A stretch of 64,000 nucleotides of DNA from Synechococcus sp. CS-1328 (GTDB lineage: Bacteria > Cyanobacteriota > Cyanobacteriia > PCC-6307 > Cyanobiaceae), in the NCBI RefSeq assembly GCF_025128095.1, contig NZ_JAHLYT010000056.1, positions 1-64,000 on the forward strand, read 5' to 3'. Numbering within the stretch: position 1 is the stretch's first letter; every line of letters starts with the position of its first letter. Shown piece by piece: positions 6,298 through 41,150 of the stretch. The notes below the pieces were generated by a model that saw only the letters and a program-made list of their open reading frames with translations, did no database searches and was not told the origin of the DNA. Position numbers and translations under genes: made by a program.

Positions 6298-6324
6298 CCT
6301 TCGCCCCAATCGAATCCGGAACGG

Positions 6325-7071: not shown

Positions 7072-7690
7072 TCACCCCGAAGCCGCCCAGCACCCCTGCC
7101 ACCGCCATGAACCAGAGGGGCGAGATCCGCGTGCGCAGCATCAGCGCACACACCACCAGCGACACCACCACCCCGGGGGGGTTGGTATCGGCGGTATGGA
7201 GGATTTTCAGGCCCACCGCGAACAGGATGCCGAGGGTGATCGGCCCCAGGCCCCGCTCAAAGGACACCCGCCAGGGGGAATCGCGGAAGCGCTGCCAGCT
7301 GAGGCAGGCCACCACCATCAGCAGGGTGGAGGGCAGCAGGATGGCGCATTCGGCTCCGTAGGCCGAAAGCAACGCCCAGAAGGGCCCCTCACGCTGGGCC
7401 GCCCCCAGGCCAAGCAGGCCCACGATCATCGAGCTGGGTCCGGGCGCCGCCTCGGCCAGGGCGTAGAGATCGGCGAACTGGGCATTGCTGAGCCAGCAGA
7501 ACTGGTCGACGCTGAGATGGTGGTATTCGGCCAGCAATGTGTTGCCGCCCCCCAGGGAAAACAGCGACAACGACAGGAACTCCCCGATCACGCGCAGCAG
7601 GTTGGCCAGATCCGAGAGGGGCAGGGGGCTGCAGGCCTGGGCCTCGGCCAGAAGCCGGGTCGATGGGGACAGCCAGATCAGAGGCACCAT
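7061..7690 (-). CDS. chrA: Chromate transporter, short-chain ChrA (second subunit)
   Basis: One half of a two-gene chromate ion transporter of the CHR family, an inner-membrane protein that exports chromate or related oxyanions. From the ATG at 7690 it has 209 residues with six or so hydrophobic stretches and the CHR signature: LFSLGGGNTLLAEYHH near the start and LAEAAPGPSSMIVGLLG. The start overlaps the stop of the partner gene in an ATGA. Short ChrA proteins normally work as such pairs. The ORF could be opened upstream to 7735 but that would only overlap the partner. Confidence 0.85.
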   Translation of the reverse strand: MVPLIWLSPSTRLLAEAQACSPLPLSDLANLLRVIGEFLSLSLFSLGGGNTLLAEYHHLSVDQFCWLSNAQFADLYALAEAAPGPSSMIVGLLGLGAAQREGPFWALLSAYGAECAILLPSTLLMVVACLSWQRFRDSPWRVSFERGLGPITLGILFAVGLKILHTADTNPPGVVVSLVVCALMLRTRISPLWFMAVAGVLGGFGVINR

Positions 7691-8313
7691 CAGGGAGGAC
7701 CCGATGGGGTTGTGCCTGGGCGGGGCCAGTACCACGCCATTGCGAGTGGACCGAGCACCAGTACCACCGGCACGAGGCGCACATGAGCCAGGGTCAGGGC
7801 CAGGAAGGTGACGGCCGCCAGCAGCAGGGCCATGCGGTCGCTCAGATAGGTGTGGAGAATCTTGAACCCCATCGACAGGGCCATGCCAGCGGCGGCGGCC
7901 ACCACTCCGGCAAGCACCCGATCCACCGCCGGCAGCCCATGCAGCTGGAAGTAGGCCAGCCCCACCAGCATCAGCAGAGTGAAGGGCACCAGCAGCATGC
8001 CGGCCAGGGCCACCAGAGCGCCGGGCAGGCCGCGAAACCTGGTGCCGATGTAGATGGCCATGTTGATCTGATTCGGCCCAGGAAACAGACGGGCCACCGT
8101 GAGCCCGGTGATGAAGGCCTCATTGCTCATCCAGCGGCGCTGTTCCACCACGATCCGCTGGCTCCAGGCCGACAGGCCACCGCCGAAGGAGGAGAGGGCG
8201 ACCTGGAGCATGCCGCTGAACAGGGCCCCCAGCCCGGGGGGCGGGGCCAGGGCGAGATCCTCGTCAACAGGATCCCGATCAGGGAGGACCACGCCCTCAG
8301 GAGGGGCACCCAT
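7690..8313 (-). CDS. chrA: Chromate transporter, short-chain ChrA (first subunit)
   Basis: Partner half of the split chromate transporter. The 207-residue protein shows the CHR motif SSFGGGLSAWSQRIVVEQRRW, then GLTVARLFPGPNQINMAIYIG with the conserved PGP, and repeated hydrophobic helices. It begins with an ATGA overlap at the end of the PLD-family gene (8313) and ends with another ATGA overlap into the second ChrA gene, so the three genes form one reverse transcription unit. The set is set between minC and minD, which suggests a later insertion into the host min region. Confidence 0.87.
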   Translation of the reverse strand: MGAPPEGVVLPDRDPVDEDLALAPPPGLGALFSGMLQVALSSFGGGLSAWSQRIVVEQRRWMSNEAFITGLTVARLFPGPNQINMAIYIGTRFRGLPGALVALAGMLLVPFTLLMLVGLAYFQLHGLPAVDRVLAGVVAAAAGMALSMGFKILHTYLSDRMALLLAAVTFLALTLAHVRLVPVVLVLGPLAMAWYWPRPGTTPSGPP

Positions 8314-9335
8314 CAGTCGTGCACGAAGTGGGGATCGGGCGGCAGCTCACCCTCCTCATGCAGGCTCGGATCCAGCGGGTCGGGAGCGTCGTATTTGCAG
8401 GCCTGGTCCCAGTCGGCCTCGAAGGTGGCCTTGAGGCGCTGCACCACCGCAGGGGCATCACTCTCGATGCCGAGTTCGCGCCGCAGATCGAAGGCGCTGC
8501 GGTCGATGTTCATCGAGCCGGTCTGGGCAAAGGCCCCATCCACCAGGATCAACTTGGCATGCAATTTGAGGTGCTTCTGCCGGCGCACCTTCACCCCGAA
8601 GCGGCGCATCACCCGAAGGGAGGAGAAGGTGTCGTAGATGTCCCAATCACTGATGCCGTGCTTACCACCGCACAGCACCCGCACCTTCACACCCCGCTCC
8701 CGCGCCGAGAGGATGCGCTCAAGGATCACCGCATCCACGAACTTGGGGTGCTGGATCCAGAGGGTGTGACGGGCCGCGTCAACGATGCGGGCCATCTGGC
8801 CTCGGCTGTGCATGCTGCTCCACACCAGGCCCACGGCGAGATCGGGCTGGAAGAAGGTGCGGTTCCAGTCGGCCTCGAAACCAGCGATCACCTGCTCGAT
8901 CACCGGGGCCGCGTAGGTGACCACGCCGTAGTCGCGGGTCTGGGTGAAATATTTATCCGACAGGTTGAAGGTGGCGATCAGCGCACAGTCGTGATCCACC
9001 ACCAGCGACTTCTCATGGGTCACCGGAAAGGCCTCGCTGGTCCAGGCCACGGCAATCCCCCAGCCCTGCAGTCGGGAGTAGGTCTCGTCATTCCAGCGGT
9101 CGCCGCCGGAGGTGTGGGGGTTGAGCATCACCCGCACCTGCACGCCGCGCTGCTGAGCCCGCAACAGGGCCTGCTCCACCGCTTCGGACTGGAGCTTGAA
9201 CTGCTTGAGACGCAGCTCCGACCGGGCCTGGTCGATCAGCGCCACCACCGCATCGGCTCCGTCGTCCGGCATCACGATCAGGTGCTGATGGCTGCGGATC
9301 GGCACCGGCGGCGATGCGGCTGTCGATTCGGCCAC
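8313..9335 (-). CDS. Phospholipase D-family protein (cardiolipin synthase-like)
   Basis: A 340-residue protein with two complete HxKxxxxD catalytic motifs: HEKSLVVD near residue 107 and HAKLILVD near residue 265, the latter followed by TGSMNIDRSAFDLRRELGIE. Two such motifs make one active site in phospholipase D, cardiolipin synthase and some nucleases. No membrane helices are evident, so a soluble phosphodiesterase is more likely than a classical cardiolipin synthase. It is the first gene of the reverse islet with two chrA genes, and its actual substrate is unknown. Confidence 0.8.
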   Translation of the reverse strand: MAESTAASPPVPIRSHQHLIVMPDDGADAVVALIDQARSELRLKQFKLQSEAVEQALLRAQQRGVQVRVMLNPHTSGGDRWNDETYSRLQGWGIAVAWTSEAFPVTHEKSLVVDHDCALIATFNLSDKYFTQTRDYGVVTYAAPVIEQVIAGFEADWNRTFFQPDLAVGLVWSSMHSRGQMARIVDAARHTLWIQHPKFVDAVILERILSARERGVKVRVLCGGKHGISDWDIYDTFSSLRVMRRFGVKVRRQKHLKLHAKLILVDGAFAQTGSMNIDRSAFDLRRELGIESDAPAVVQRLKATFEADWDQACKYDAPDPLDPSLHEEGELPPDPHFVHD

Positions 9336-9463
9336 GCGTCTATCCCGGGCAAGGGGGAGGGAAGAAACCCTGTTCTATCGGGGTCCGGGTCCGGCGGCCC
9401 GCATCAGCCAGCACCGCCAGCGCCTGGGGGTGGCCTTAACCTGCTGCAACGCCAGCCAGTGCC

Positions 9464-10282
9464 GTGACCGCCGCCCCGACGCGCATCATTCTGATCTGCT
9501 CTGGAAAAGGCGGAGTGGGCAAGACCACCCTCACCGCCAACCTGGGCATCGCCCTGGCCCGCCAGGGTTCCCGCACCGCTGTGCTCGACGCAGATTTCGG
9601 TCTGCGAAACCTCGATCTCCTGCTGGGGCTCGAGAACCGGATCGTCTACACCGCCCAGGAGGTGCTCGCCGAGACCTGCCGCCTGGAGCAGGCGCTGGTG
9701 AAGCACAAGCAGGAACCCAACCTGGCTCTGCTGCCGGCGGGCAACCCGCGGATGCTGGAGTGGCTGACGCCGGAGGATATGCAGCGGATCGTCGCCCTGC
9801 TGGCCGAGCGCTTCGACATCGTGCTGATCGACTGCCCCGCCGGCATCGAAGACGGCTTCCGCAATGCCGCAGCGGCGGCCCGCGAGGCGATTGTGGTCAC
9901 AACCCCGGAGGTGTCCGCCGTGCGGGATGCCGACCGGGTGATCGGGCTGCTCAACACCCAGGGGATTGAGCCGATCCAGCTGGTGCTCAACCGGGTGCGG
10001 CCCAAGATGATGCTCAACCAGGAGATGCTGGCGGTGAGCGATGTCACCGACATCCTGGCGCTGCCACTGCTGGGCCTGGTTCTGGAGGACGAGCAGGTGA
10101 TCGTCTCCACCAACCGCGGCGAACCGCTCACCCTGAACGGCAACGGCTCACCAGCCGCGAAGGCTTATCACAACATCGCCCGGCGCCTGCGGGGCGAGAC
10201 CGTCCCCCTGATCGATCCGGCCAAGGAGGGGCAGGGCCTGCGGGCCAAGCTCGGTCGATTCATGCAGACCCGGATTTTCTGA
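9464..10282 (+). CDS. minD: Septum site-determining protein MinD
   Basis: A membrane-associated ATPase that recruits MinC and is released by MinE. The 272-residue protein starts at GTG 9464 and shows the deviant Walker A motif [16 protein letters not shown], the [20 protein letters not shown] block, and [16 protein letters not shown] as Walker B. The C-terminus ([13 protein letters not shown]) is the amphipathic membrane-targeting helix. MinE follows after 4 bp. MinC lies 2.4 kb upstream, displaced by the chrA/PLD islet. Confidence 0.98.
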
Positions 10283-10286
10283 ACCG

Positions 10287-10586
10287 ATGACCCTGCGCGA
10301 TTTCATCAACCGACTGCTGGGTCGTCAGCCCGCCAGCGCCACCCTGGCCAAACAGCGGCTGCAGCTGGTGCTTGCCCACGACCGCAGCGACCTCAACCCC
10401 GAGCTGCTCGAGAAAATGCGGAGCGAGATCCTTGAGGTGGTCTCCCGCTACGTGGAGATCGATGTGGAGGGAGGTGATGTGAGCCTCGAAACCGAGGACC
10501 GGGTCACCGCCCTGGTGGCCAACCTGCCGATCAAGCGGGCCCGTGCCATCCCCCTGGCCGCCGTCGCCGAGCCGGCGGAAGGGTGA
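10287..10586 (+). CDS. minE: Cell division topological specificity factor MinE
   Basis: The 99-residue protein stimulates MinD ATPase and gives the Min system its position. It has an N-terminal membrane/MinD-contact region ([14 protein letters not shown]), the central [17 protein letters not shown]-like helix (here [19 protein letters not shown]), and the dimerisation beta-sheet ([22 protein letters not shown]). It is 4 bp downstream of minD and certainly co-transcribed. Confidence 0.97.
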
Positions 10587-10663
10587 GCCAGCGGATTGCT
10601 GAGTCGCCAGAAAGCTGAGCCTGTCCGTATTGGGGAATCCTGCAGACAGCTCGACCCGGATCG

Positions 10664-10885
10664 ATGGCTCTCTGCACCAACACCGCTCCTTTCCCCCTGT
10701 CGCCGCTCACCCCAGCGGAACAGCGGGTGCTGCAGCAGCTGCGCTGTGGCTTCAGCAACAAGGGCATCGCCGCTGTGCTGGTGGTGAGCCCGCGCACCGT
10801 CGAAAGCCACATCTCCAATCTGCTGGCCAAGACCGGTTGCCGCAACCGCACCCAACTGCTCCTGTGGGCGCTGGGGGAGCGATAA
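10664..10885 (+). CDS. Stand-alone LuxR-type helix-turn-helix protein
   Basis: A 73-residue protein that is essentially only a GerE/LuxR DNA-binding domain: LTPAEQRVLQQLRCGFSNKGIA, then VVSPRTVESHISNLLAKTGC as the recognition helix region, then RNRTQLLLWALGE. No receiver or sensor domain is present, so control must come from its expression level or a partner. It lies between minE and tRNA-Thr, just outside the integrated element. Short LuxR-only proteins are common in picocyanobacteria; target genes are unknown. Confidence 0.85.
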   Translation: MALCTNTAPFPLSPLTPAEQRVLQQLRCGFSNKGIAAVLVVSPRTVESHISNLLAKTGCRNRTQLLLWALGER

Positions 10886-10916
10886 AGTCGGCGCGGGGCC
10901 TGAGGGCCCGGCCCTT

Positions 10917-10988
10917 GCCGGCTTAGCTCAGCGGTAGAGCAGCGCTTTTGTAAAGCGAAGGTCATCGGTTCAAATCCGTTAGCCGGCT
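10917..10988 (+). tRNA. tRNA-Thr (anticodon TGT)
   Basis: A 72-nt cloverleaf: acceptor GCCGGCT pairs with AGCCGGC, the D-arm is GCTC...GAGC, the anticodon loop is TTTGTAA with anticodon TGT, and the T-loop is TTCAAAT. CCA is not encoded. The 3' part of the gene, from the anticodon loop onward, is repeated at 41104-41150, which identifies it as the target of an integrative element. The gene remains complete at this end. Confidence 0.97.
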
Positions 10989-10993
10989 TCCTG
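10947..10993 (+). repeat. attL: left direct repeat of the integrated element
   Basis: This 47-bp segment runs from the anticodon loop of tRNA-Thr to 5 bp past the gene end. The same 47 bp occur at 41104-41150 in the same orientation, with one mismatch (T at 10962, C at 41119). Sequence on either side differs. This is the expected scar of site-specific integration by a tyrosine recombinase into a tRNA gene. Confidence 0.93.
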
Positions 10994-11141
10994 CTTCAGT
11001 TCAAGAAAGCGCTCCACCATTGGGGTCTGGGCGTATTGGGCAGACTGAAGCGTCCACACGAGCGAGCCTCCTCGCGCCCGGTTTGACACGGATTTGTCCG
11101 AGTGTTGTCCGACAGACTGAGGGGGATCAAAGTCTTGAACC

Positions 11142-12269
11142 ATGGACGCCGAGGGCCTGCGTGAGCTGCTGAAGAAGGATCGTCTGGTAGGCCGCGGCCA
11201 AGGATCCCTCTTCAGTGACCGAGGGTCCCTCTACCTCCGGGTGGACGGGCTTCGGCTTCGCTTGGGGGTCCCTGAAGAGTCGGCCCGCTACGAAGAGGTC
11301 CGTGACCTGGTTCATGGCCTGCAAGCACTAAGACGGAGGGGCGCCCTCAGCCGGCCTGCTTGGGAAGCCCACCTTCGACAGCTGGAGACCGAGCAGGCTG
11401 CAACGAATCTGGACGGCTTTGCGGAAGTTGCAAGGTTCGTCTTGGCACAGAAGCTCGACGAGGGAGCCTCTGAGGCAACCGTCCGCTCCAGGTACTTCCC
11501 TGTGCTGCGCCGGATGTACGAACACCCCTCTGGCGCACCATGGGCAACAACCACAATTAGGGAGGCACTTCAACCCCTAGCCCCCTTAGGCCAGACAAGG
11601 AGGCAAATCGTGCCCTTCCTGCGTCAACTTGCTCAGGAGCTCAGCAAGCCCTGGGATCCGGTGCTTGATCGAGCGGCAAACGCAGGTAAGAAGATCGAAC
11701 GAAGCCGCGGACTCGACTACTACGACGACCAAAGGATCCTCCGGATGCTTCATGCGGAGCTTGAGCCGGAGTGGAGAGTCGTGGTCGGCCTTCTTGCCAT
11801 TTACGGCCTGCGCCCATGGGAGGTCACCGTCGCGGAGCCCTGCGAAAGGTACCGGAAGATGGTCTGGGTCAATCAAGGGAAGAAGTCAGCTCGCGGAACA
11901 AATCCCCCGAGATCTGTCCCCCCTTTCAGAAGTGAGTGGGTCGAGGAGATCGATCTTTTCCAGTTGTGGCGAATTCACGGACTGCCAGAGGCCCTAGGGG
12001 TACAGAACCGACGACAAGCCGGCAGCATCATCCAGGTGGCACTCCAACGGAAATCCCGAGGGGTCCTCACACATGGGGAAGGAGCTTATGGATTTCGTCA
12101 CTCATGGGTCCGAAGGATGCACCAGGCCTTCGAGATCTCCGATACGGACGGGGCACTCTTTGCAGGGCACACCCTGGACTGCCACATCCGCACCTACAGG
12201 AGCTGGCTTCCCGGCATGGATGATCCGTACCAGCGGCTCACCACCCATGAGTGTCCAGCAACCGAGTGA
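11142..12269 (+). CDS. int: Tyrosine recombinase (integrase)
   Basis: The 375-residue integrase inserts and, with a helper, removes the element at tRNA-Thr. The C-terminal catalytic domain shows R224 in IYGLRPWEV, R319 in GAYGFRHSW, H343 in FAGHT and the nucleophile Y352 in IRTYRSW. The usual HxxR box reads YGFR, so the histidine is replaced by tyrosine, a substitution I believe recurs in cyanobacterial tRNA integrases. It starts 153 bp after the tRNA. The stop overlaps the convergent excisionase-like gene by 32 bp, so the two transcripts are antagonistic. Confidence 0.88.
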   Translation: MDAEGLRELLKKDRLVGRGQGSLFSDRGSLYLRVDGLRLRLGVPEESARYEEVRDLVHGLQALRRRGALSRPAWEAHLRQLETEQAATNLDGFAEVARFVLAQKLDEGASEATVRSRYFPVLRRMYEHPSGAPWATTTIREALQPLAPLGQTRRQIVPFLRQLAQELSKPWDPVLDRAANAGKKIERSRGLDYYDDQRILRMLHAELEPEWRVVVGLLAIYGLRPWEVTVAEPCERYRKMVWVNQGKKSARGTNPPRSVPPFRSEWVEEIDLFQLWRIHGLPEALGVQNRRQAGSIIQVALQRKSRGVLTHGEGAYGFRHSWVRRMHQAFEISDTDGALFAGHTLDCHIRTYRSWLPGMDDPYQRLTTHECPATE

Positions 12270-12471
12270 TGTTCTCAACATGGAACTGCATCCTGTCCCG
12301 AGTGCCAACAGTGATGCAGCGAAAATGCTTGCCCCTGACCCAGTGCGGGGCCGTCTTGGAACGATCGCGAAGGGTCGTCGGGCTCATACCAAGCTGGCCA
12401 GCCGCATCCCCGGTCCCAAACCATGAGCGAGCCCTAGAGCAGGAAGCAACAGGGCGAGCGGAGTCCACCAC
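12238..12471 (-). CDS. Small helix-turn-helix protein, excisionase-like
   Basis: A 77-residue frame whose middle reads GTGDAAGQLGMSPTTLRDRSK, a MerR/Xis-style winged-helix start, followed by PHWVRGKHFRC and VENITRLLDTHGW. This pattern (strand carrying W-x-GKH, then a helix) is typical of small phage and plasmid DNA-binding proteins placed beside integrases. It converges on the integrase and overlaps its end by 32 bp. The first 17 or so residues may not be translated because the start codon is uncertain (GTG at 12471). The direct role as excisionase is inferred from position and size. Confidence 0.55.
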   Translation of the reverse strand: MVDSARPVASCSRARSWFGTGDAAGQLGMSPTTLRDRSKTAPHWVRGKHFRCITVGTRDRMQFHVENITRLLDTHGW

Positions 12472-12501
12472 AAGCAGGGGTCCTATCAGAGTCCTTACAC
12501 C

Positions 12502-13344
12502 CTAGTCGGTCAAGCGCAGATCGTGACAAGCGTGGAGCTGCTGTTCCGACTTGGAGGGCAGCACCGCCAGGGGGTCACCGGGCGCGCCCGTGAGCTCATC
12601 AATCAAGCCGCGCGGGGTTCTGGCCATCCCATCGATGAGGCCGAAGACCTTGCAGATACCTTCTGCATCCAGAGAAAGCTCTTCAGGCTCGTATTGATCA
12701 AGTCCAGCCGCCACTGCAATAAGCTTCGACGCGCGCTCCCTTGCAGGAAAGACCTTCTCTGCGATGGCCTTGACCTCAATGAAATCCTTCCCTGACCTGG
12801 AGATCAGTCGTGACGCGTACTGAGGGAAACGACTGACAGCGATTTCCATGCTCTGGTCACCTCTGGCACCCCCCACAACCCCAGTGATAGCAATGTATCC
12901 CAGGTAAAGCAACATCCATCCTCCCTGATCCAAGGGCAGGCCACTTCGGGGATCTTCGATCACGAAAGCGTCCTTAATCAGGCCCTCAATCTTGGAAGTA
13001 ACAGGCGCCGTTCCGAGCTTCTGGAACAAGTCACGACGATTCTGGTAGGCCCAAACAGCCAAGTTGATGGCTCCAAAAGCATCCAGAGTCTTAACGCCCA
13101 TCATCCGCATCTTGCCATTTCGGATGTGTGAGATCTGGGAGGTGTGAAGTACTCCCGTCTCGTTTAGCGCCCAGGTCGCGAGGGCCTCGGTGGCTGGATG
13201 GCTCCATTGATTTCGAGCCAGCCAGTAGATCATGACTGCACTCATGTGCTGCCTGCCCAGCTCACGCCGGGTGTGCCCATCGGCGGGGGCGCCGGGGATC
13301 AGGAACTGCGGCGACAGGATCGCCGTGGCAAGAGCTTTCGTCAT
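12502..13344 (-). CDS. Putative regulatory protein of the mobile element, family not recognised
   Basis: From the ATG at 13344 this gives 280 residues. I do not recognise a family with confidence. The N-terminal third (SAVMIYWLARNQWSHPATEALATWALNE, then TSQISHIRNGKMRMMGVKTLDAFGAINLAVW) looks like a helical DNA-binding region, with TSQISHIRNGKMR resembling an HTH recognition helix plus wing. The rest is mixed and includes a hydrophobic stretch (MLLYLGYIAITGVVGG). It is transcribed divergently from the small gene at 13456 across a 111-bp region that carries three CTGTCRG boxes, so it may act as the element's regulator. Codons are visibly less GC-rich than in host genes. Confidence 0.6.
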   Translation of the reverse strand: MTKALATAILSPQFLIPGAPADGHTRRELGRQHMSAVMIYWLARNQWSHPATEALATWALNETGVLHTSQISHIRNGKMRMMGVKTLDAFGAINLAVWAYQNRRDLFQKLGTAPVTSKIEGLIKDAFVIEDPRSGLPLDQGGWMLLYLGYIAITGVVGGARGDQSMEIAVSRFPQYASRLISRSGKDFIEVKAIAEKVFPARERASKLIAVAAGLDQYEPEELSLDAEGICKVFGLIDGMARTPRGLIDELTGAPGDPLAVLPSKSEQQLHACHDLRLTD

Positions 13345-13401
13345 GCTTCGCACCCTAACGAGTCCACGAGCAGAGAGGAAGGCGTTCCACAGGAGGCATT
13401 T

Positions 13402-13446
13402 CTGTCAGCATGCGCATTGGGGTCTAGGCTGTCGGAGTACTGACAG
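13402..13446. promoter_or_regulatory. Repeated CTGTCRG boxes in a divergent promoter region
   Basis: CTGTCAG is at 13402-13408, CTGTCGG at 13429-13435 and the inverted copy CTGACAG at 13440-13446. The last two make a near-palindrome of 18 bp immediately upstream of the ATG at 13456. The stretch lies between two divergent genes, the layout expected for an operator recognised by the regulator encoded at 12502-13344. This is inference from pattern; no promoter hexamers were confidently assigned. Confidence 0.45.
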
Positions 13447-13455
13447 CAGACCACC

Positions 13456-13668
13456 ATGACATCGAATGCCGAACACCGCTTCCTGTCCGCTCAAGAATTT
13501 GGAGGGTGGTGGGCACCTGTAAGCCTTCGCGATGCCTTGTCAGGCGGCAGGTTTGTAGGCCAGACGATGCGGGAACACCGCAGGCGCCAGGAACGCATCA
13601 AGCGCCGTGCTGCCAAGGCCTCCTCTTTCCCTGGGTGCAAGCGCCGTAACGGCCGTAAAGACAGGTAG
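13456..13668 (+). CDS. Small basic protein of unknown function
   Basis: The 70-residue frame starts at ATG 13456 and has a sensible N-terminal half (FLSAQEFGGWWAPVSLRDALSGGRFVGQTMREHRRR) and a strongly basic tail rich in Arg and Lys. It could be a nucleic-acid-binding accessory of the element. The tail composition also fits a chance frame in GC-rich DNA, so the call is tentative. It is the first plus-strand gene upstream of the replicase. Confidence 0.45.
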   Translation: MTSNAEHRFLSAQEFGGWWAPVSLRDALSGGRFVGQTMREHRRRQERIKRRAAKASSFPGCKRRNGRKDR

Positions 13669-13685
13669 GCCGTCACGCTCCGATA

Positions 13686-13718
13686 GGCGGCGACGGGACC
13701 TAGTGCTCCGTCGCCGCC
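13686..13718. repeat. Strong hairpin upstream of the replicase gene
   Basis: A perfect 11-bp inverted repeat (GGCGGCGACGG / CCGTCGCCGCC) encloses an 11-nt loop. It is not followed by a T-run, so it is a poor Rho-independent terminator. It sits 114 bp before the replicase start in a non-coding gap and could be an attenuator or a structural part of a replication origin. Confidence 0.55.
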
Positions 13719-13831
13719 ACCATTGACATGAGCCCCAGAAGCTCAGTCACGAAAGAGCCGGGGACGAGTCAGCCGGCCCAGCGGTTCGACTTCTGGCCCC
13801 ACACAGGGGGCACCTCTCTCCCCCCTCCCCC

Positions 13832-16627
13832 TTGCAGCTGAGTGCATTGTTCGGATTTCCCTATTCCGTCCCCCCACCACAGACGCCGACTCAAACGGCC
13901 GCATTCATCGAAGCGGTAGCCGAGCTCGCCACCTATGGCATTGATCCCAATCTGGCTATGGCAAGCATTCGGGTAGGGGTTGCCCCAGAGCAGGAACAGG
14001 CCTGGGCACGTCTTGAGCGTAAGGCTGCAGAGAACTCCTTGCATGGCCAAGCCGCTGAGATGCGCCGCATAAACGACTGGACCAGGCAAGCCCGTCAAAT
14101 CGCATCGACCAACGGAATCGGGTTCTACGGCGTCAAGGTGGTGCACGGCGTCATCAAACAGGAGGCGACCTTCTCGACGATGCGACGACCTACTGGACCT
14201 CGTTATGACAGTTCCTACCAATCGGACGCCGACCGGATTTATCTAGCACCGGTGCCCTTGTCCGTCGCGGCCCGAATCTTCCCTGGGACCTTCACCAAAC
14301 TGGGGTACACGCCAGATCAATTCTGGAGGCACGTCCTTGCAGACCCGAAGATCGGGATCTATCTGGAAGAGGGCGTGAAGAAGGCTCTCGCTCGTCTCAG
14401 CGCTGGAGGTGTCGCGATCGCACTGGGAGGCATCGATGGAGGATTTCAAGCTGGGAGTGGGGGCAGGCTCCAATCCATCCTCCGCAAGTTCGCGAAGGGT
14501 GGGCGACAGATCATCGTTCAGTTCGACCGGCCCGGTGAGAAGCGCCCCGAAGTCCGCGCCGGTAAGCGAATGGTCCGGGCTTTAAATGCCAGTGGAGCCG
14601 ACGCCAGACTTGCACTCTGGGAAGGCGACCAGAAGGGCACCGATGACGTACTCAAGATGCTCACAGAGCTGCGCAGGCTCGCGACAGAAGACCTTGAGCT
14701 CTTGCCCAATGAGCTACGTACCCGAATAGAGGCTTACCTGCAAGCTGCACCTGATTCAGCGACGGCACTGGCGATGCTCACTGTCGCAGAATTGGTACCT
14801 GATGGAGATGCACCTCGACGCCTCACCAGAGAGCCCTGGCTGATCTCCTCAACAGAGTTCAACGTGGTTCATGTTCTCGACGGCTTAGGTCTCTCCAATA
14901 TGAGCGCCGCTGCCTGGGATGGGAACCACACACTGGCGATCGCCGGTGCCACTGGCACGGCAAAGACTGAATCTGTGCTGGCCGCACGTGATGCTCTAAT
15001 CGACGCCAATCCAGAAGATCCAATCCTCACGATATGCCCCACCTACCGGGCCTCATTGGCTGGAAAATATGGCAGCCAGTTCGGCGTTCCTCTGATCCGC
15101 GGCAATAAAGTGCTACGCGCCGGCTCAACGAAACCAGGAGCATCTTTCTGCCTAGAGTCTGGCCTCAGGCCTGGGGGACTGGAAGACCTGCATCGCAAGC
15201 TCAAGGACGGCGCTCGCGCACTGCTTCTACTTGACGAAGCTGATCAGGTGCTGGTCTCGTTGCTCATCGGCGGGACAGAGCCTCTCGTAGAGAACCGCCG
15301 CAAGACGCTTGATCTCCTGCTCGCACTACTGGCTCATGAGAATGTCCTTACCGTCGCCCTTGATGCGGGGCTAAGCGATATGACTCTGGACTTCCTGGAA
15401 CACGCCACGGGGCGTCCTGTTCGACTGCTCTCAACCTCGTTCACCAGGCAGAAGTCAGTTCGGTTAGTCACCCACAAAACCGCCATAGGGAAAGCATTAC
15501 GGGCCGCAGCAGATGGGATTCCTGTGCGAGTGGCCGTGGCAACCCCGAAGCTTGCTGCCGAGGTCGTCGAAGCTCTTTCTGAACACATTCCCAAAGACAA
15601 GATCCTCACCATCACTGGAGAGAACTCCGGCGAACCGAACGCGCTGGTATTCATGCAGGATCCTGATGGTCAGGCTCCTCGGTGGCGTGCACTCGTTCAT
15701 ACTCAGGCGCTGGTCTCGGGCGTGTCCCTGACTGGTGGGCATTTCAAGGTCATCGTCTGTCTGCAGGATCACGCGATGGGCCCCGCAGACGTGATCCAAC
15801 TCCTGAACCGCGACCGTCTCGCGACACAGCGCTTCCTCGCCATTCGGCGTTCCGTACCGCAGGCCTGCCCACAGCATCGCATCAGCAGCCCTAAGGGAGT
15901 GGACCGCTACTACCGCGATCTCGCGATGCAAGCCGACCCCGGCCGCTTTGTAGAGGATCTCCGGACAATGCCGTATTGGCTCCACTCGCTGATCTCTCGA
16001 TTCGAGGCCCAACAAGTCTCTGAAGCTCTGAACAGCGAGGTTGTTCTGCGGCGCATGCTGTCCGAAGAGGGATATGACATCGCCGAAGTCGATGACGAGA
16101 CGGAGATGGCACGGGAGCCAAACCCCAAATCAGGACCTACAACCACTGAGGAGCCAACAGGACCAGGGGCAATCCCAGAGATATGGCAACTCGTCACGGG
16201 GGAGGCTCTTCTAGAGGAGCACCACGAGCGAGTCGACCATGAGCTGGAAGGAAGCTTGCCGACCGACAGAATCCTCGCCGACCTGACAGAAAAGCTTGCT
16301 CTGGCGCGGGGCTTGAGACTTGATCGTCTGGCCACCCTGGGCACTTCATACACAGCCAACACGCCGGAGGTGATGGAGACATGGGAAGCGCTTTGCACCA
16401 CAGACAAACCGATGAGGCAAAGGCTCACCCGGGCTGGCTACTTTCAGAAGGTGAAATTGATCCCGGGCTGTGATCAACGGGGTGTGGTGCCGCCAGTGAA
16501 TATGCGCACCATCGGTGCCGTCTTGGCGAAGGTGGGCGGGAAACAAGCGCAGACCGGCTACGAAGGGGGCCGGGGGAATCAGCTCCGAGCCTTCCGCGTG
16601 GCTCCCAACCTGCACATAGGTTCCTGA
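13832..16627 (+). CDS. Replicase with DUF3854 (Toprim-like) and helicase domains, cyanobacterial RepA type
   Basis: The 931-residue protein combines a primase-like region and a P-loop helicase, the architecture of cyanobacterial plasmid replication protein CyRepA1 and of replicases in picocyanobacterial integrative elements. Residues 150-260 contain the DUF3854 region (ALARLSAGGVAIALGGIDGG, QIIVQFDRPG, RAGKRMVRALNASG). Walker A is GATGTAKTES (372-381) and Walker B LLLLDEADQ (464-472); a helicase C-terminal core follows (QALVSGVSLTGGHF, IQLLNRDR). It probably initiates or supports replication of the excised form. The TTG start at 13832 is uncertain since no clear ribosome-binding site precedes it. 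Confidence 0.82.
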   Translation: MQLSALFGFPYSVPPPQTPTQTAAFIEAVAELATYGIDPNLAMASIRVGVAPEQEQAWARLERKAAENSLHGQAAEMRRINDWTRQARQIASTNGIGFYGVKVVHGVIKQEATFSTMRRPTGPRYDSSYQSDADRIYLAPVPLSVAARIFPGTFTKLGYTPDQFWRHVLADPKIGIYLEEGVKKALARLSAGGVAIALGGIDGGFQAGSGGRLQSILRKFAKGGRQIIVQFDRPGEKRPEVRAGKRMVRALNASGADARLALWEGDQKGTDDVLKMLTELRRLATEDLELLPNELRTRIEAYLQAAPDSATALAMLTVAELVPDGDAPRRLTREPWLISSTEFNVVHVLDGLGLSNMSAAAWDGNHTLAIAGATGTAKTESVLAARDALIDANPEDPILTICPTYRASLAGKYGSQFGVPLIRGNKVLRAGSTKPGASFCLESGLRPGGLEDLHRKLKDGARALLLLDEADQVLVSLLIGGTEPLVENRRKTLDLLLALLAHENVLTVALDAGLSDMTLDFLEHATGRPVRLLSTSFTRQKSVRLVTHKTAIGKALRAAADGIPVRVAVATPKLAAEVVEALSEHIPKDKILTITGENSGEPNALVFMQDPDGQAPRWRALVHTQALVSGVSLTGGHFKVIVCLQDHAMGPADVIQLLNRDRLATQRFLAIRRSVPQACPQHRISSPKGVDRYYRDLAMQADPGRFVEDLRTMPYWLHSLISRFEAQQVSEALNSEVVLRRMLSEEGYDIAEVDDETEMAREPNPKSGPTTTEEPTGPGAIPEIWQLVTGEALLEEHHERVDHELEGSLPTDRILADLTEKLALARGLRLDRLATLGTSYTANTPEVMETWEALCTTDKPMRQRLTRAGYFQKVKLIPGCDQRGVVPPVNMRTIGAVLAKVGGKQAQTGYEGGRGNQLRAFRVAPNLHIGS

Positions 16628-16640
16628 TTCTGTACTCGCT

Positions 16641-16696
16641 AAATACCCCTGGCCGATTGTCGCTCTATAAAGACAAGCCATCTCCCCGGGGTATTT
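16641..16696. repeat. Spaced 9-bp inverted repeat after the replicase
   Basis: AAATACCCC at 16641-16649 is matched by GGGGTATTT at 16688-16696, a perfect inverted pair with 38 bp between. It begins 14 bp after the replicase stop. It may be an operator or part of an origin; the wide spacing argues against a terminator. Confidence 0.45.
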
Positions 16697-16797
16697 GGCG
16701 CATACCATCCCGACCTTTCACACCCTCTACCACGCCGCACCATCGATGGGGTTCCCCCTATTTCGTGGAACCAGATGCGTATGACACCGCACCCTCA

Positions 16798-17070
16798 ATG
16801 CTTTCGTCCCTGAGATTTCCTCCCGATCAAGCCCGGAATACTTCGACGTCTCTTGCGAATGGCCCCATGGATCAGGTTCGTTCCCTCCCACCCAGCAACT
16901 GCTCTCCAGTTGCGATCGAGGTCCTGAATCGCTCGGGAGGCTGGGTGGCCGGCTTCAGTCTCCTTCGGTTCAACGATGACGGCACTGTCAAGGTCATGAG
17001 CGATCGCTCGGGTGCTGTCCGTGATCTGCCTCAGACCGCCTGGCGCGACCTTCCTCCGGCCCTTACCTGA
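16798..17070 (+). CDS. Small hypothetical protein of the mobile element
   Basis: From ATG 16798 this reads 90 residues. The second half has balanced, protein-like composition: VAIEVLNRSGGWVAGFSLL, then RFNDDGTVKVMSDRSGAVRDLPQTAWRDL, reminiscent of a small beta-barrel. Family not recognised. A shorter start at ATG 16867 is possible, and the frame is open upstream to a TTG at 16657. It lies between the replicase and the terminase-like gene. Confidence 0.45.
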   Translation: MLSSLRFPPDQARNTSTSLANGPMDQVRSLPPSNCSPVAIEVLNRSGGWVAGFSLLRFNDDGTVKVMSDRSGAVRDLPQTAWRDLPPALT

Positions 17071-17107
17071 GCCACCACGGAAGACAAGGTCAGACGACTT
17101 CTGCACT

Positions 17108-17305
17108 GTGTCTGACCTACGCCGCCAGATCTTCCCCGAGTACAAGAAGGGCCGGCCCTCCATCGCTGAGCGAAGAGCTGCCCACCGGCGCCGGTTCCTG
17201 GAGAGCTTCGATGTTCCGCTCTCTTGGTGGCTGAGCGGACCGGAATGGCCCTGCTGCCCGGTTCCCGAGAGATCAGACAAGGCGGCGGATGGTTTCGGCT
17301 TCTGA
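17108..17305 (+). CDS. Small hypothetical protein of the mobile element
   Basis: A GTG at 17108 opens a 65-residue frame beginning VSDLRRQIFPEYKKGRPSIAE, followed by a basic helix (RRAAHRRRFLESF) and a tryptophan-containing segment. The N-terminal half resembles a short DNA-binding helix pair, but no family was recognised. Position between the replicase and the terminase-like gene suggests an accessory role. The start and the reality of the gene are uncertain. Confidence 0.4.
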   Translation: MSDLRRQIFPEYKKGRPSIAERRAAHRRRFLESFDVPLSWWLSGPEWPCCPVPERSDKAADGFGF

Positions 17306-17572
17306 CGGAGAAGCGACGCTCTGGAGCTGCTTGGGCGGGAACCGGCCTGGCCACGATCAAGACCCTTCTACCGGTTCTAGGTGCTGCCGGCTGGCACACG
17401 ACAACGGCTGGCCAAGCATCCCCCACCTGATCCACCTTCAGAGAGGTCTCTGGTGTGCCCCTCCCCGCCAGTGACCGAACTGTTCTCATCGCCTGCCCGG
17501 TTCGATTCCCTGCCGGTCCGCTGCGATCCGCTGCGACGCCCTGGAAGCCTGAGGACACCGCCTGAGGACACC

Positions 17573-18175
17573 GTGACAGCCCCGCCATCTCCCTGGGAGC
17601 AACTCGACGGGGAGCACGCCCGCGACTTCGAGCGATTCCTCAGCTATCTGCATCTGGGGCCCAGCCGTACGAACGTGGCCACGGCTGGGGTCTGCGGTTG
17701 CTCTGAGGCCTTGGTCCGTCGCCTTGCCGTCGCCTGGGACTGGAAGGAACGGGCCGCGGCCTACGACCGCCAGCGTGGGCGGAAGGTCAGTGACTGCCTG
17801 CTGGAGGCCGTCCAGGGGGATGTAGCCACCTACCGCGACGCGCTGACTGCCTACCGGGATCAGCAAGTGCGGAACGCCGAGGCCCTGACCAATGCCGCCA
17901 GCCTGATGCTGCAGCTCTGCGTTCGCAGCGTGAAGCAACTGCAGGAGAGCGGTGCCGCCGTGCCGCCGGCCTCCCTGGGCAGCCTCTCCGCGGCCGCCTG
18001 CAAGATGCTGGAGCAATCAAGCAACACCGTGGCGAGTCTCCTGGGCATCGACGAACTGACCGCGATGCTTGACGACGACGATGACAACCCCCGCCCCGGG
18101 CCCCCACTCCTCGAACCCCTGCCTGGGAGCACTGGCGAGACCGCCGAGGCCCTGCGGAACGTGGCCCGGGCCTGA
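17573..18175 (+). CDS. Terminase small subunit-like protein
   Basis: From GTG 17573 the protein has 200 residues. Its N-terminal domain (WEQLDGEHARDFERFLSYLHLGPSRTN, then ATAGVCGCSEALVRRLAVAWDWKERAAAYDR) follows the pattern of phage terminase small subunit or related packaging HTH proteins, in which a homeodomain-like HTH is followed by a tryptophan-rich WxWxxRAxAYD segment. A helical region follows and the tail is acidic (MLDDDDDNPRP). There is no large terminase, portal or capsid gene nearby, so it may redirect packaging by a helper phage, as phage satellites do. That role is inferred; a generic DNA-binding protein is the alternative. Confidence 0.6.
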   Translation: MTAPPSPWEQLDGEHARDFERFLSYLHLGPSRTNVATAGVCGCSEALVRRLAVAWDWKERAAAYDRQRGRKVSDCLLEAVQGDVATYRDALTAYRDQQVRNAEALTNAASLMLQLCVRSVKQLQESGAAVPPASLGSLSAAACKMLEQSSNTVASLLGIDELTAMLDDDDDNPRPGPPLLEPLPGSTGETAEALRNVARA

Positions 18176-18631: not shown

Positions 18632-21169
18632 TTAATCCAGCTCGCCGGCCTGGACCTTCTTCCGGATCCTTCTCAGCAACCCCCGGATCTCCTCTTCTCC
18701 GCCACCAAAGCCCCCGGAGTGCCGGTCTGCCCTCGCCTTGAAGAAGAGGGCGCAGCGCAGCTGGGTGAGGGTCTCAGCGCTGCTTGGGTTGTTAGCAAGG
18801 TCGGCGCAGGCTTCGAAGGAACCAGCCACCTCGTAACCATTGATCGTGTGGGCAAACACCACCCAGTCGTAGAGGTCCCCGTCAGGATCAGGAATTCGGT
18901 TGAGCGTGAGCAGATGGTTGTTCACTCGCCCATCGAGTGCCTCGTGTCCCCTTGCGAAGTCCCTGTCGAAGTCGGCCCTGCCTGGCGACAGGAAAGATGA
19001 TGGCTTGCCGCTGTAGGTCACAACCACCCTCTTCTTGGCTCGGGTGGCAGCGACATGCAGAAGCGATCGCTCCTGCTGTTCGAACAGCTCACGCGAGACC
19101 TGATCCGGACGACGGTTCAGCTCCACCCTGTAGGGCATCTGGTCGGCCGTGAGCTCGGGGATGAAGACCTGGTCAAACTCCAGCCCTTTGACGCGATGCA
19201 TGGTGGCCAAACGCAGGGCCGGATCGCTGGGGTCATCGGCCTCATTGGCCTCAATCAGACGAACGAGGAACCCGGCCTTCTCCAGGCCCTTGGCGACCCG
19301 GTCGCGGGCCTTCTTGGTGCGCAGGGTGACGCAGGTGGAGGCAAGGTTGCCATCGCCTTGGCAGAGCTGACTGAGGGCGTCCTGTAGGAAGCGCTGTTCG
19401 TCGGCCGGGTCGTCGAAACCTCGGAGCACCGGCTTCTCGCCGTGGAGCAGCGAGCGGTAATCGCTGGTGGAGTCGTTGCCTCCATCAAGGTCGTCAAAGT
19501 CGACCCCCTCCAAGACAGCAGTGGCCCAGGCGCGGGTCTCTTCGGTGGTGCGGTAGTTGATCCGCAGCTTGCGGGAGCGGCCGCGCACATCAATGCCGCA
19601 ACGTCCGAGCACGATCGGCTTGCCGTAGATGCGCTGATGGGGATCGCCCACGATGAACAGGTCGTTGGGATGGGGCTCGCCGGCCAAAACCCGGATCAGG
19701 GAGAACGAGGCGACATCGAGGTCCTGGGCCTCATCCACCACCACCGCCACGTAGCGCCCCCCCTGGCCGGCATTGCGCAGCAGATCCGCCGCTGCGGTTT
19801 TGGCCTCTTCCGGTTCCCAGAGCCCGCGCTGGCGGAACTCAGCCCGCAGGGCATCGAACACCGGCCAGATCAGGGCCCGCTGCTGCTTGCTCAAGCGGGT
19901 GCCGCGTCCGATCCTCCGGGCTGCCAGGTAGTCGTCACGGGAGCGGCAGCCATTGGCCAGCACCACGTCTTTCCACTCCTCCCGGTAGAAGCGCTCCTCC
20001 AGGCCCAGGGCGGGGTCAGCCACATCCATGGCGAGGCTCCAGCAGGCATCACGCGCTTCTTCGTTGAAGACCCGTACCTGGAGACCCTGATTTTTGAGGA
20101 AGGTCATCACCCAGCCATCGAGGTGGATGACTTCGATGCGCCTGAGTTCTTCAAGGCTGCAGATCTTGGCGAGGTTGCTGCGGATGTCGGTGGCGAGGTT
20201 GCGGGTGAACGTGGTGAACAGCACCTGGCCCGGGGCACCGGAGGCGAGTAACCGGTTGGCCAGCCAGCGGGCGCGATGCATGGCCACGACCGTCTTGCCT
20301 GTGCCGGCGCCGCCCAGAACCCTCACCGGGCCGTTCCAGTCGCGATTCACCAGTCGTCGCTGGCTGGGATGCAGGAACACCCGCCACTGCTCCAGCGGCG
20401 CCGAGAGCATGGCCTCCAGCTCGTCGTCGTCGGTGATGACGAGAAACTCCGCCTGGCTTTCGGGTGTGGCCAACGCCGTGGCCACATCCTCGGGATCGAT
20501 GTGAGCGGGCCGCTGGCGCTCCAGCTCCTCGATCACCGCCTCGATGGGCTTTCCCTCAGCCAGCAGGATCAGACCATCGACGCAATCCTGCGGCACCCAT
20601 TCGATCAGCCGCGCCAGGGCCTCCTCGCTCTGGACAGCACGAACGGCCGGCAGCAGTGCCTCGGGAACGCCGAGCAGCATGAGCTGGTCATCCCCGCAGT
20701 GGGCAAACAGGGAAACCGCCTCTGCTGTGGGTTGACGCTCCGGGAGGGTGACGTCGCTGGGGGCTGCGGTGATCCCTTTGGTGCCGGCCGTTGCGCTCGC
20801 ATCCCCCACGGCGGTCTCGGCCGCCTCGACATCGACGATCTGCAAAGCGCCAGACACGCGGTTCACATGGCAGGTCTTGCGCCGCGCCCAGTTGTAGGCG
20901 TCATCGTGCTTATCGATCCAGAGCAGCACGAAGGTGTCTCCCTGCTCGGGCGCCCGCAAGATGCAGCGGATGTCCTGATCGACCCGGATCGAGCGGATCA
21001 AGGGATCCTTGCCGCCCTCGATGCGCTCGTAGTTGAGGCCAGGGCTACGCGGATTGTCGCGGAACTTGGAGACGAACGCCGCCACCTTGCCGCGAGCCTT
21101 CTCCGGCAACTGGTTGAGGGCCTTGAGGAAGCCAGTGGAGAGGGCAACGGTGATGCGGGGTTCGCTCAT
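18632..21169 (-). CDS. RelE-like domain fused to UvrD/Rep-type superfamily 1 helicase
   Basis: The 845-residue protein starts at ATG 21169, whose first bases overlap the stop of the upstream helicase gene in an ATGA. Residues 1-90 resemble a RelE/ParE toxin fold (VALSTGFLKALNQLPEKARGKV, then YERIEGG, SIRVDQDIRCILR, LLWIDKHDDAYNWA). A UvrD-type helicase follows: Walker A GGAGTGKTVVAMHRA near 288, VVVDEAQDLD near 480, NYRTTEETRAWA, then VKGLEFDQVFIPEL and LHVAATRAKKRVVVTYSG. It would translocate on single-stranded DNA; whether the RelE-like part still cleaves RNA or only binds is unknown. It is the last gene of the defence operon. Confidence 0.85.
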   Translation of the reverse strand: MSEPRITVALSTGFLKALNQLPEKARGKVAAFVSKFRDNPRSPGLNYERIEGGKDPLIRSIRVDQDIRCILRAPEQGDTFVLLWIDKHDDAYNWARRKTCHVNRVSGALQIVDVEAAETAVGDASATAGTKGITAAPSDVTLPERQPTAEAVSLFAHCGDDQLMLLGVPEALLPAVRAVQSEEALARLIEWVPQDCVDGLILLAEGKPIEAVIEELERQRPAHIDPEDVATALATPESQAEFLVITDDDELEAMLSAPLEQWRVFLHPSQRRLVNRDWNGPVRVLGGAGTGKTVVAMHRARWLANRLLASGAPGQVLFTTFTRNLATDIRSNLAKICSLEELRRIEVIHLDGWVMTFLKNQGLQVRVFNEEARDACWSLAMDVADPALGLEERFYREEWKDVVLANGCRSRDDYLAARRIGRGTRLSKQQRALIWPVFDALRAEFRQRGLWEPEEAKTAAADLLRNAGQGGRYVAVVVDEAQDLDVASFSLIRVLAGEPHPNDLFIVGDPHQRIYGKPIVLGRCGIDVRGRSRKLRINYRTTEETRAWATAVLEGVDFDDLDGGNDSTSDYRSLLHGEKPVLRGFDDPADEQRFLQDALSQLCQGDGNLASTCVTLRTKKARDRVAKGLEKAGFLVRLIEANEADDPSDPALRLATMHRVKGLEFDQVFIPELTADQMPYRVELNRRPDQVSRELFEQQERSLLHVAATRAKKRVVVTYSGKPSSFLSPGRADFDRDFARGHEALDGRVNNHLLTLNRIPDPDGDLYDWVVFAHTINGYEVAGSFEACADLANNPSSAETLTQLRCALFFKARADRHSGGFGGGEEEIRGLLRRIRKKVQAGELD

Positions 21170-24100
21170 CGGGAGAGGGGGACGGGGCAGGACTGAAGGC
21201 GTTCGATCAAGGCGCTGGCCGTCGCATCGGGTGGGTCCTCCGCCAGCCAGCATTGCCAGCCCGCGGCATCAAAAGCTGGTTGGTCGCCTGACTCCAGCAC
21301 CAAGGCCAGGCGCTGTTGAGGCCAGGCCAGATCGGCCATCGGCCCAGCAACGTCTCCCCTGGCTCCTTCCAGCTCGTAGCCGAGATCCGGGAAGGGGATC
21401 TTCTCTTGCAGGAGCAGATCCCGCAGTTTCTCGAGAACGGGCCTTGATGCAGGTTCGGCCAGGTCGAGAGCCTGATCCCATTGGCGCTGCAGCTCGGGGT
21501 TGCTGGCTGTGGCTGCTCCCCTGCCATTGGCTCCCGCCAATCCAGCCACCCACACGGTGGGGGGATCCACGGCGGCGCTCTGTTCCGCCCCTGACCAGCC
21601 TGGGGTGGACAGGAGGAAATGGGGCAGGAACTGGAAGAGGTTGCCCTGACGCAGCCATTCCTGCCAGCTGCTCTGCTGCTGCTGGTCTGAGCTGGCGAGT
21701 TCCGGGTCGTAGTGGATGGAGCGAAAGCTTGCGGCAGGATGCCGGCTGCCATGGCGCGCCTGCTCCAGCAGGTTGAGTGCACTCAGGCCAGGGGCAATGG
21801 CCAGAACCTGGCCCAGCCGACGACCGGGCTCTGGGCCCTGCCACTCGTCCACGTGATCCTCCAACGCCTGATCGGCGATGGCCGCCTTGATCTCGGTTCC
21901 ATCGAGCGCCATAGCACTGCCCTGGGACAGGCAGAACAGCTGTGCCAGCCCCTGCCACAGGCTCTCCGATGGGTTGGCCAGATAGGCCATCAGCAGCTGC
22001 AGGCTGTTGGCTGCCTGTACCTCGCGGGGCATCAGCAGGGGCGGCTGAGGGAGGGACTGGAGCAGCGCCTCTGGCCACCACCTTTCAGTGAACTTCTCCG
22101 GGCTGGTGGCGAAGGCCGGCACCACCCCGACCGCCAAGCCATTGGGCTCCAGCGGGGTCTGGGCGCTGGGTAGCTTCTCGACCACGTCGGACCAACTCAG
22201 CGACCACACCAGATAGCGGCCGCTGCGCTGCAGGGCCATGCGTTGGCGGGCGTCATCGGCGAGGCGGCCGTGGTGGAATTCCCAGCCATCGGTGTAGATG
22301 GCGATCGGCTTGCCCCCTGCGGTGGGGGTGAGCAGGAAGTCGGCGCGGGAGAACTCCGCCACGCCCTCGCCCTCACCCAGGGGCACCTGCTGCTCCAACT
22401 TCCAGGTGGTGGCCGCCGGCCCGCTACCGATCTTGAGGAGATAGCCGATGCGGCCATGGATCACGTCCTTCTTGAGCACCACCGGCACGCCATCCGGGGC
22501 ACCCTTACCGGTGCGCAGAGCCTCGAGGAAGCGGAGCTCGAGTTCGCTTTCGGCTCGACTGTTGATCGTGATCTCTGAAAGGCTGCGATCGGTGGCCTGC
22601 AGGTCATCCCAGCGGCGCAGGATCGCCTGCAGCTGCTCGATAGCGCGGCGCTTGCTGGTGCGCTCGCGATCGAAGCGCTGGCGGTACATGAAGATGCAGC
22701 GGTAGCAGCCGTCGCTGCAGGGGCAGGACTGCAGGGCCGCGAGCGAGCTCTGGAACACCTCGCGCAGATCCTTGCCGCCCTGCTCCATCAACTGGCGCAC
22801 GTAGCCGGTGCCGCCGGGAACTGAATCAAAGAGGTAGAGGAAGGTTTTGCGCTGCTGGCTGCCGGGCTGGGGTTCTTCACCAAGGGCAGAGCGCAGGTGG
22901 TCCACCTTGCCGCCGAAACGATGGCGCAGGCCAAGGTGCAACGCGCCCACGAAGGAGGGCTGGCCCTCGTCATCCCAGAAGCTGGCACCGGGCAAGAGGA
23001 AACGCACCGCCTCGGAGCTGAACTCCCGGTACATGAACAGGAGATTGCGGAGCTGAGCGCTGTCGGGCTGGTCACGGGACTTGCAGGCCCAGGTGTGGTT
23101 CGAGGCCTTGGCGGGGCCACGTTGCACCTTGCCGCAGCTGCGGCAGAGCTCAAACCCCCTGACCCGGAGGGGTTTGCCGGCGATGTTGTGCGTCGCCCCG
23201 ATGGGTGTGAGCTCCCCGAAGTTGATCTCGCGGAAGGTGGTGCTGGCCAGGTACTCGGCGCCAAAGGGAAAGTCTTCGTCGTCCACGGCCAGGGAGATCT
23301 CGCGGCGGGACAGGTCGGGAAGGATCAGCAGTTCGCGGTGGAAGAAGAGTGGATTCCGCTCGTCGGTGTCGTCCCCGAAGCGGCTGCGGGCATCTTCCGT
23401 GGTGGCCTGCACCTGGCGCAGGCGGGCCATCTCCTTGACCTGACCGTGGTCGGCGTAGCCGCTGTGGCCACAGCGAGGGCACTCCTTGCGGTTGTAGTCG
23501 TCGTCGGTTTCGCGGCAGGCGAAGGAACAGGAGGGGCAGAACCGCCAGTGCTCCGGCTTGTTGAGGTTGGGATCGATCTGATCCACCTTCACCCGCCTGC
23601 CCTGGGCATAGAACTGGCCGTCGGGAACCAATTCGCGGATCGCGACGTTGGCCGGCCGCTCGTAGCTGAGGGTCGGCAGCTCCTCGGTGCGCCTGGGGCC
23701 ACCGCCACGAGCGGGCAAGCGTCGCCAGAGCACTGACTTCAGCGTCACGCCGGCTTCAGGGAAGGCGTAGTTGGGCAGGAAGCCCTCGTCGGTGAGCATG
23801 GCCAGCAGTGGCCGGCCATCGAGGTCCTTGCGCAGCTGGTTGTAGGCGATCTGTTCGCGCCGGATGGCGTCTTTGTCTTCCCGCTGCTGCTCCAGCAGGG
23901 ATTGCTCGGGAATGGCGGCGAGCTTGTTGAACCGCTCGCGCAGTTTGGTGGCCTCACTGCGCAGGCGCTTGCGCTCGGCGATCAGCTCCTCGAGCCGCCC
24001 GATCAGGCCCCTGGCGTAGGGCGCAGCGAAGGCACCGGCCTGGCCGGCATCAGGGGAGCTGAGGAAGTAGGCGCGCAACTCCTGGCGGCTTGGCTCCTGC

Positions 24101-28664: not shown

Positions 28665-28789
28665 TCTGACGCAGGTTTGTTCAACAGCTGGCGAACCGTG
28701 AGCGTCATAGACAACGCGCCATTGCCTCCTTGAATAAACAACGAGCTAATTCACTCCACAGAAGAACTGGTTCATGATATTCCTATAAG

Positions 28790-31278: not shown

Positions 31279-31407
31279 TCTCCCACCAAGTGTCGGTCTT
31301 AAGCATGTGCTTTTGCTCAACAACCAATATACTCTTTCGTCGGCGAAGGAGTCGAAGAATGAGTGTAGCAAGTTCGAGGTCCACGCTGAATCCATGAGAC
31401 AGGAACG

Positions 31408-41103: not shown

Positions 41104-41150
41104 TTTGTAAAGCGAAGGCCATCGGTTCAAATCCGTTAGCCGGCTTCCTG
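41104..41150 (+). repeat. attR: right direct repeat, 3' copy of tRNA-Thr
   Basis: This is the second copy of the 47-bp repeat seen at 10947-10993, in the same orientation, differing only at 41119. It contains the anticodon loop, T-arm and acceptor 3' half of tRNA-Thr but no 5' half, so it is not a functional tRNA. It marks the right boundary of the integrated element; host sequence resumes at 41151. Confidence 0.93.

Follow-up and report, generated by a model that had tools for sequence, protein, structure and literature searches.

The window analysed here is a stretch of 64,000 nt from Synechococcus sp. CS-1328 (contig NZ_JAHLYT010000056.1, positions 1-64,000; all coordinates are window positions). 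It contains a 30.2-kb element inserted in a tRNA-Thr gene, and this element is probably an integrated phage satellite that replicates itself, redirects the large terminase subunit (TerL) of a helper phage and bears 22 kb of defence genes. The reading is carried by a plasmid-type replicase and by a gene for a small terminase subunit (TerS) that stands alone, since a solitary TerS accompanied by exchangeable replicases and integrases is best explained as part of a phage satellite.

The replication gene at 13832-16627 is a single, intact open frame. Its DUF3854 domain passed the cut-off of PF12965 (E=2e-18), Walker A (GATGTAKTES) and Walker B (LLLLDEADQ) motifs were present in the helicase part, and the helicase region matched the 'replication' family phrog_4913 (E=5e-22), bearing out the DUF3854/helicase replicase of the original prediction. 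Against the NCBIfam model of CyRepA1 (NF042913) the protein reached 103 bits (E=1.7e-29), the curated cut-off being 200 bits, and by this measure it is a relative of CyRepA1 and not a member of the family. By tblastn the replicase was matched to the CyRepA1 proteins encoded on cyanobacterial plasmids; RepA of phage-plasmids, N15 and phiHAP-1 among them, gave weaker matches. With this gene the element possesses a replication module of its own, as looked for in a satellite.

The product of 17573-18175 matched phrog_6299, 'terminase small subunit', over residues 6-169 (E=4.4e-18) and belongs to this family by sequence; the TerS of cyanophage PSS2 matches the same family. Annotated cyanophage TerS were also found by tblastn with the window protein (PSS2, 3e-11; S-CRES3, 2e-8; S-CBS2, 5e-6). 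The frame is intact, with an alternative in-frame upstream GTG at 17381. The AlphaFold2 model, predicted from an alignment of satellite sequences only (mean predicted local distance difference test value, pLDDT, of 85), shows three short N-terminal helices of helix-turn-helix (HTH) type and, after them, a hairpin made of two very long helices. An HTH followed by a long helical hairpin is the architecture known from TerS proteins, and both the N-terminal HTH and the helical oligomerisation hairpin are seen in the model. In a fold search among viral models (BFVD) it matched phage proteins, including one named TerS at E=0.04. The original prediction had described a small terminase-like protein and had staked it on a relation to TerS; with relatedness found in sequence and a compatible predicted fold, the gene is judged to encode a genuine TerS. 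When satellite and phage TerS were compared, the best-shared stretch was the C-terminal 'LGxxEL' region, with a mean identity of 37% (50% between the window protein and PSS2 TerS), against which the HTH reached 27% and the coils 19-21%. Lambda TerS binds TerL through its C-terminal part (PMC6739421), and the conservation of this region fits a TerL-recruiting role.

PHROGs scans of the element genes revealed no TerL and no portal, capsid or tail gene, the 2185-aa gene having been scanned with Pfam and PADLOC only. Within these scans the absence of structural phage genes is upheld, and the element has a TerS without TerL or virion genes, the arrangement sought in a satellite. As far as the tests reached, the statement that replicase and TerS are the sole genes for replication or packaging is correct; the remaining helicases (18632-27723 and 36822-40097) belong to defence-type families. 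No capsid-size or Ppi gene was recognised in the element. Candidate helpers were looked for among the TerL-bearing loci of genomes G023, G105 and G123; none of these loci showed a recognisable TerS of the window family, and therefore no resident helper is named.

The occurrence of this TerS was then surveyed in about 400 genomes of the host's family. A match at E<=0.001 was obtained in 18 rows, the window's own included; the family counts among its named members Prochlorococcus MIT 0701 and Synechococcus single cells. Neighbourhoods were read for 20 TerS relatives, spread over 17 other genomes, and in none of them (0/20) did TerS lie near a TerL or portal of the PSS2 or S-CBS2 type; TerL genes present in some TerS-bearing genomes lay on other contigs or at least 80 kb away. 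A replication gene adjoined TerS in 17 of the 20 loci and was of at least three kinds: DUF3854/CyRepA1-like (9 loci), a second CyRepA1-related type (5 loci; E about 2e-10 in L022 and L023), an AAA_25 protein in L026, and a gene with a weak match to archaeo-eukaryotic primases (AEP) in L034 and its relative L035 (E=3e-4). Two of the three loci lacking such a gene have a truncated or interrupted TerS. TerS stands beside 10 of the 12 strong replicase homologues found in the surveyed genomes, counting G318, where the pair is split over contig ends, so that the pairing is not due to chance. Integrases also vary, with tyrosine recombinases at tRNA-Pro, tRNA-Val and tmRNA genes and a large serine integrase (phrog_95) in the L031 group. 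Two compact relatives are complete, L022 (5963-16301, 10.3 kb, in tRNA-Pro) and L041 (4777-16809, 12 kb, in tmRNA), and the elements of L031, L039 and L040 have ~9.6 kb in common at 95-98% DNA identity in genomes of two genera, which indicates recent movement. As TerS is constant and replicase and integrase are exchanged, TerS probably has a role that does not depend on any one replicase. On the question of whether the same protein is widespread in non-mobile contexts, intact relatives were found beside replication genes and integrases and never beside a PSS2-type TerL. Comparison with these relatives lends good support to the proposal that the element may move in phage particles, packaging itself being the step that we infer.

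The survey also bears on an integrative plasmid-like element that moves otherwise, through vesicles, natural competence or conjugation helpers, and in which TerS acts as a regulator or replication accessory. Such an element would agree with the kinship of the replicase to plasmid initiators, with the nearly constant closeness of TerS to the replicase, with the lack of virion-derived copies in the (insensitive) scans of IMG/VR and with the existence of a related element, L078, that has no TerS. We nevertheless consider it unlikely, as TerS is retained alongside very different replicases and integrases, a pattern that suits packaging more than a role bound to a particular replicase, and its resemblance to phage TerS is greatest at the C-terminal end, where contact with TerL is expected. 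A lower probability still is given to TerS being left over from a PSS2-like prophage that decayed within a genomic island. Its homology to siphovirus TerS is in line with such an origin, but the frame is intact with no other phage gene left, and the combination of a solitary TerS and an adjacent replicase is seen repeatedly, across many genomes and integration sites and also in compact 10-12-kb elements. Moreover, satellite TerS and phage TerS fall on opposite sides of the tree (support 90/80, not strong, with long branches), a split that gives the satellite TerS the look of an old, separate lineage and not of repeated captures.

The limits of the element were set by 47-bp direct repeats with 1 mismatch, which comprise the tRNA-Thr 3' half and a few bases past the gene end, and by an empty site in a genome of the same genus (L051). 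There, a single uninterrupted tRNA-Thr is present and both flanks (94% and 87% identical to the window) are joined exactly at the repeat sequence; the inserted unit is therefore ~30.2 kb long (10947-41103). The element thus has an integrase with attachment (att) sites in the chromosome, as satellites do. The integrase had no Pfam or NCBIfam match; it could be aligned to integrases from related TerS elements beside tRNA or tmRNA genes, and one of those integrases matches XerA/XerD models. A dense, mixed defence-type cargo fills ~22 of the 30 kb (18632-40834), which would suit a defence island merely including a mobile-element fragment by chance; this is very improbable, as the two att sites are intact, like integrase, replicase and TerS, and the site is empty in the same genus, so that the whole block is one unit, whose precise att-to-att insertion was observed.

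Several results weigh against an integrated satellite. No helper phage, and no TerL of PSS2 or S-CBS2 type, was found in the host assembly (94% complete). Scans of IMG/VR gave no satellite-type TerS or replicase, these scans being insensitive because they need short conserved patterns; the phage collection contains few cyanosiphoviruses. A fold search of the TerS model against the PDB gave no significant structure match, and the sequence search against the PDB nothing usable, probably owing to the unspecific matching of long coiled helices. Two replicase relatives (L048 and L078) lie in elements without this TerS, and replicase and TerS are thus not obligatory partners. The window element is 2-3 times the size of its compact relatives, which suggest a satellite core of 7-12 kb to which the window element added extra cargo. 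Lastly, excision, replication and packaging of the element are all steps that we infer.

If the element is a satellite as proposed, the tyrosine integrase would insert it into tRNA-Thr and excise it, the att copies and the empty site being the observed traces, and the initiator, by its observed relationship to CyRepA1, would drive plasmid-like self-replication of the excised circle. By analogy with the TerS of Staphylococcus aureus pathogenicity islands (SaPIs), the N-terminal HTH would bind a site on the element DNA, the conserved C-terminal part would recruit the TerL of an infecting or resident tailed phage, and the element would be pumped into helper capsids and packaged in helper particles. 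A 30-kb element would fill the 70-110-kb head of a cyanosiphovirus (genomes of 107.5 kb in PSS2 and 72.3 kb in S-CBS2) only as a concatemer or after capsid resizing. The defence genes would be carried along as cargo and might protect against competitors. Beyond the window, we propose tentatively, and with less confidence than the satellite itself, a widespread picocyanobacterial satellite family defined by one conserved solitary TerS, in which replicases, most of them related to CyRepA1, and integrases, of the tyrosine or large serine type, have been exchanged. Its members could in practice be integrative plasmids to which a reader of phage packaging signals was added, and some would have grown to 30 kb by stacking defence systems that phages then spread.

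Table 1. Annotated features of the element and its insertion site in the window.
Feature	Position	Strand	Evidence or remark
tRNA-Thr (TGT)	10917-10988	+	ARAGORN
Left att copy	10947-10993	+	Restores 3' half of tRNA-Thr
Tyrosine integrase, 375 aa	11142-12269	+	R...HxxR...H...Y residues present; adjoins tRNA-Thr
Divergent 283-aa protein, putative regulator	12502-13353	-	Homologue in L037, E=4e-15
Replicase, DUF3854 + helicase, CyRepA1/N15-RepA relative, 931 aa	13832-16627	+	PF12965, phrog_4913, NF042913
Small open reading frame (ORF)	16657-17070	+	Conserved in L023 between replicase and TerS, on the opposite strand there
Small basic ORF 3' of replicase	17012-17305	+	Conserved in L022 and L023
Tandem 13-bp repeat, GCCTGAGGACACC x2, perfect	17547-17573	+	Ends at terS start codon; candidate operator or pac lead only
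terS, small terminase subunit, 200 aa	17573-18175	+	phrog_6299, cyanophage TerS tblastn, AlphaFold2 model, tree
UvrD-like helicase, 873 aa	18632-21253	-	PF00580 E=2e-20; GajB / NERD+UvrD-type PADLOC matches
DruE-like helicase with MZB domain, 2185 aa	21166-27723	-	DruE models to E=3e-93; PF00270, PF09369
PD-Lambda-2_B-like HTH gene	28191-28664	+	PADLOC-type match
PDC-S30-like 538 aa, PDC-S18-like 291 aa, 152-aa protein without assignment	within 28191-31866	+	Defence-family and PHROG scans
Type IIG restriction-methyltransferase / DrmMI-like, 1631 aa	31922-36817	-	PDLC03614 E=7e-252; DrmMI E=3e-55
DrmD-like helicase	36822-40097	-	DrmD E=3e-97
PDC-S11 protein	39746-40834	-	PDC-S11 E=2e-92
Right att copy, duplicate of tRNA-Thr 3' half	41104-41150	+	Direct repeat of left copy

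Regarding the remaining features, a search for a divergent repressor/activator module like that of phage-inducible chromosomal islands (PICIs) brought up the divergent 283-aa gene, whose product had no family match in Pfam, PHROGs and NCBIfam profile searches, and L037, home of its homologue, is a locus of truncated TerS. Between replicase and terS, the ORF at 16657-17070 was 48% identical to its L023 counterpart over 66 aa (E=2.5e-15). The small basic ORF that overlaps it was recovered by tblastn in L022 (11143-11340; 64% over 66 aa, E=2e-24) and in L023 (12891-13115; 49%), and at 49-64% it is more conserved than TerS itself. Its differences by codon position (12/6/19) favour third positions, a bias that makes it probably a real gene. 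A tandem repeat like that before terS arose in 2 of 500 shuffles, and in a search for a pac site by repeats it was not found in the relatives.

Some of the related loci showed features of their own. In L031, L039 and L040, the TerS-replicase elements have a large serine integrase with a small resolvase and lie beside mutY- and pfkB-type genes. In L023 (G202, 7851-18002), an element in tRNA-Val has integrase, replicase and TerS and, beyond TerS, a DrmD-like helicase 31% identical to that of the window, so that similar defence cargo occurs on a second TerS element. L078 (G174, 8211-13961) is an integrase-replicase element in tRNA-Pro without TerS, beside genes resembling metal-handling ones, and its integrase and tRNA region has 82% DNA identity to the TerS element in L022. 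In L048 (G294, 4439-18063), a related replicase is accompanied by an integrase (phrog_1), a further integrase-like gene, a large-terminase relative (phrog_38, E=7e-39) and a series of small genes resembling Nif11-type leader peptides, with no TerS of the window family; TerL relatives similar to that of L048 are also present in G259 and G276.

Satellites are believed to carry genes between bacteria of marine and freshwater habitats, and little is known of how defence islands move in picocyanobacteria. Such elements can be recognised in sequence data by a solitary TerS, which points to helper capsids as the likely route, and the TerS type suggests the helper class, cyanosiphoviruses with a PSS2/S-CBS2-type terminase. 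The link to a plasmid-type initiator suggests that satellites can arise from integrative plasmids gaining a TerS.

Among known systems, the satellite P4 has, to our knowledge, no TerS of its own. P4-like satellites carry anti-phage hotspots (PMC9122126). The window element would likewise be a satellite with anti-phage systems, whereas its replicase and host are unrelated to theirs. The tycheposons of Prochlorococcus were reportedly described by Hackl et al. in 2023 as tRNA-integrated elements with a tyrosine recombinase and large cargo, some of them viral satellites. From this and from papers citing them (PMC11389934, PMC10803314, PMC10872708), they have in common with the window element a picocyanobacterial host, integration in a tRNA gene, a tyrosine recombinase and large cargo; tycheposon cargo is reported to be nutrient genes, whereas that of the window element is defence. 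Virion-encapsidated integrative mobile elements (VEIMEs) of marine bacteria, named in PMC10803314, are also integrative elements thought to ride in phage particles, but no virion-derived copy of the window element or its relatives was found in the insensitive IMG/VR scans. A related initiator is found in CyRepA1 plasmids such as pSYSA of Synechocystis (PMC10899382), itself described as a defence plasmid in the title of PMC9978351, whereas the window element is chromosomally integrated, has an integrase and TerS, and its initiator scores below the CyRepA1 cut-off. In the SaPI strategy, an island TerS that differs from that of the phage partners with the phage TerL (PMC8494744, PMC6739421). The window element has in common with these pac-type PICIs an integrase, att sites, a replication gene, its own TerS, accessory cargo and the absence of TerL and structural genes, and differs in its cyanobacterial host, its CyRepA1-related plasmid-type initiator and its size. 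For phage satellites a range of about 7-20 kb is given in the abstract of PMC13376191, and the 30.2 kb between the att sites exceeds it, the relatives L022 and L041 having 10-12 kb. The element is best filed as a TerS-bearing satellite of PICI, tycheposon or VEIME likeness and not as a new kind, its plasmid-type initiator and large defence cargo being unusual.

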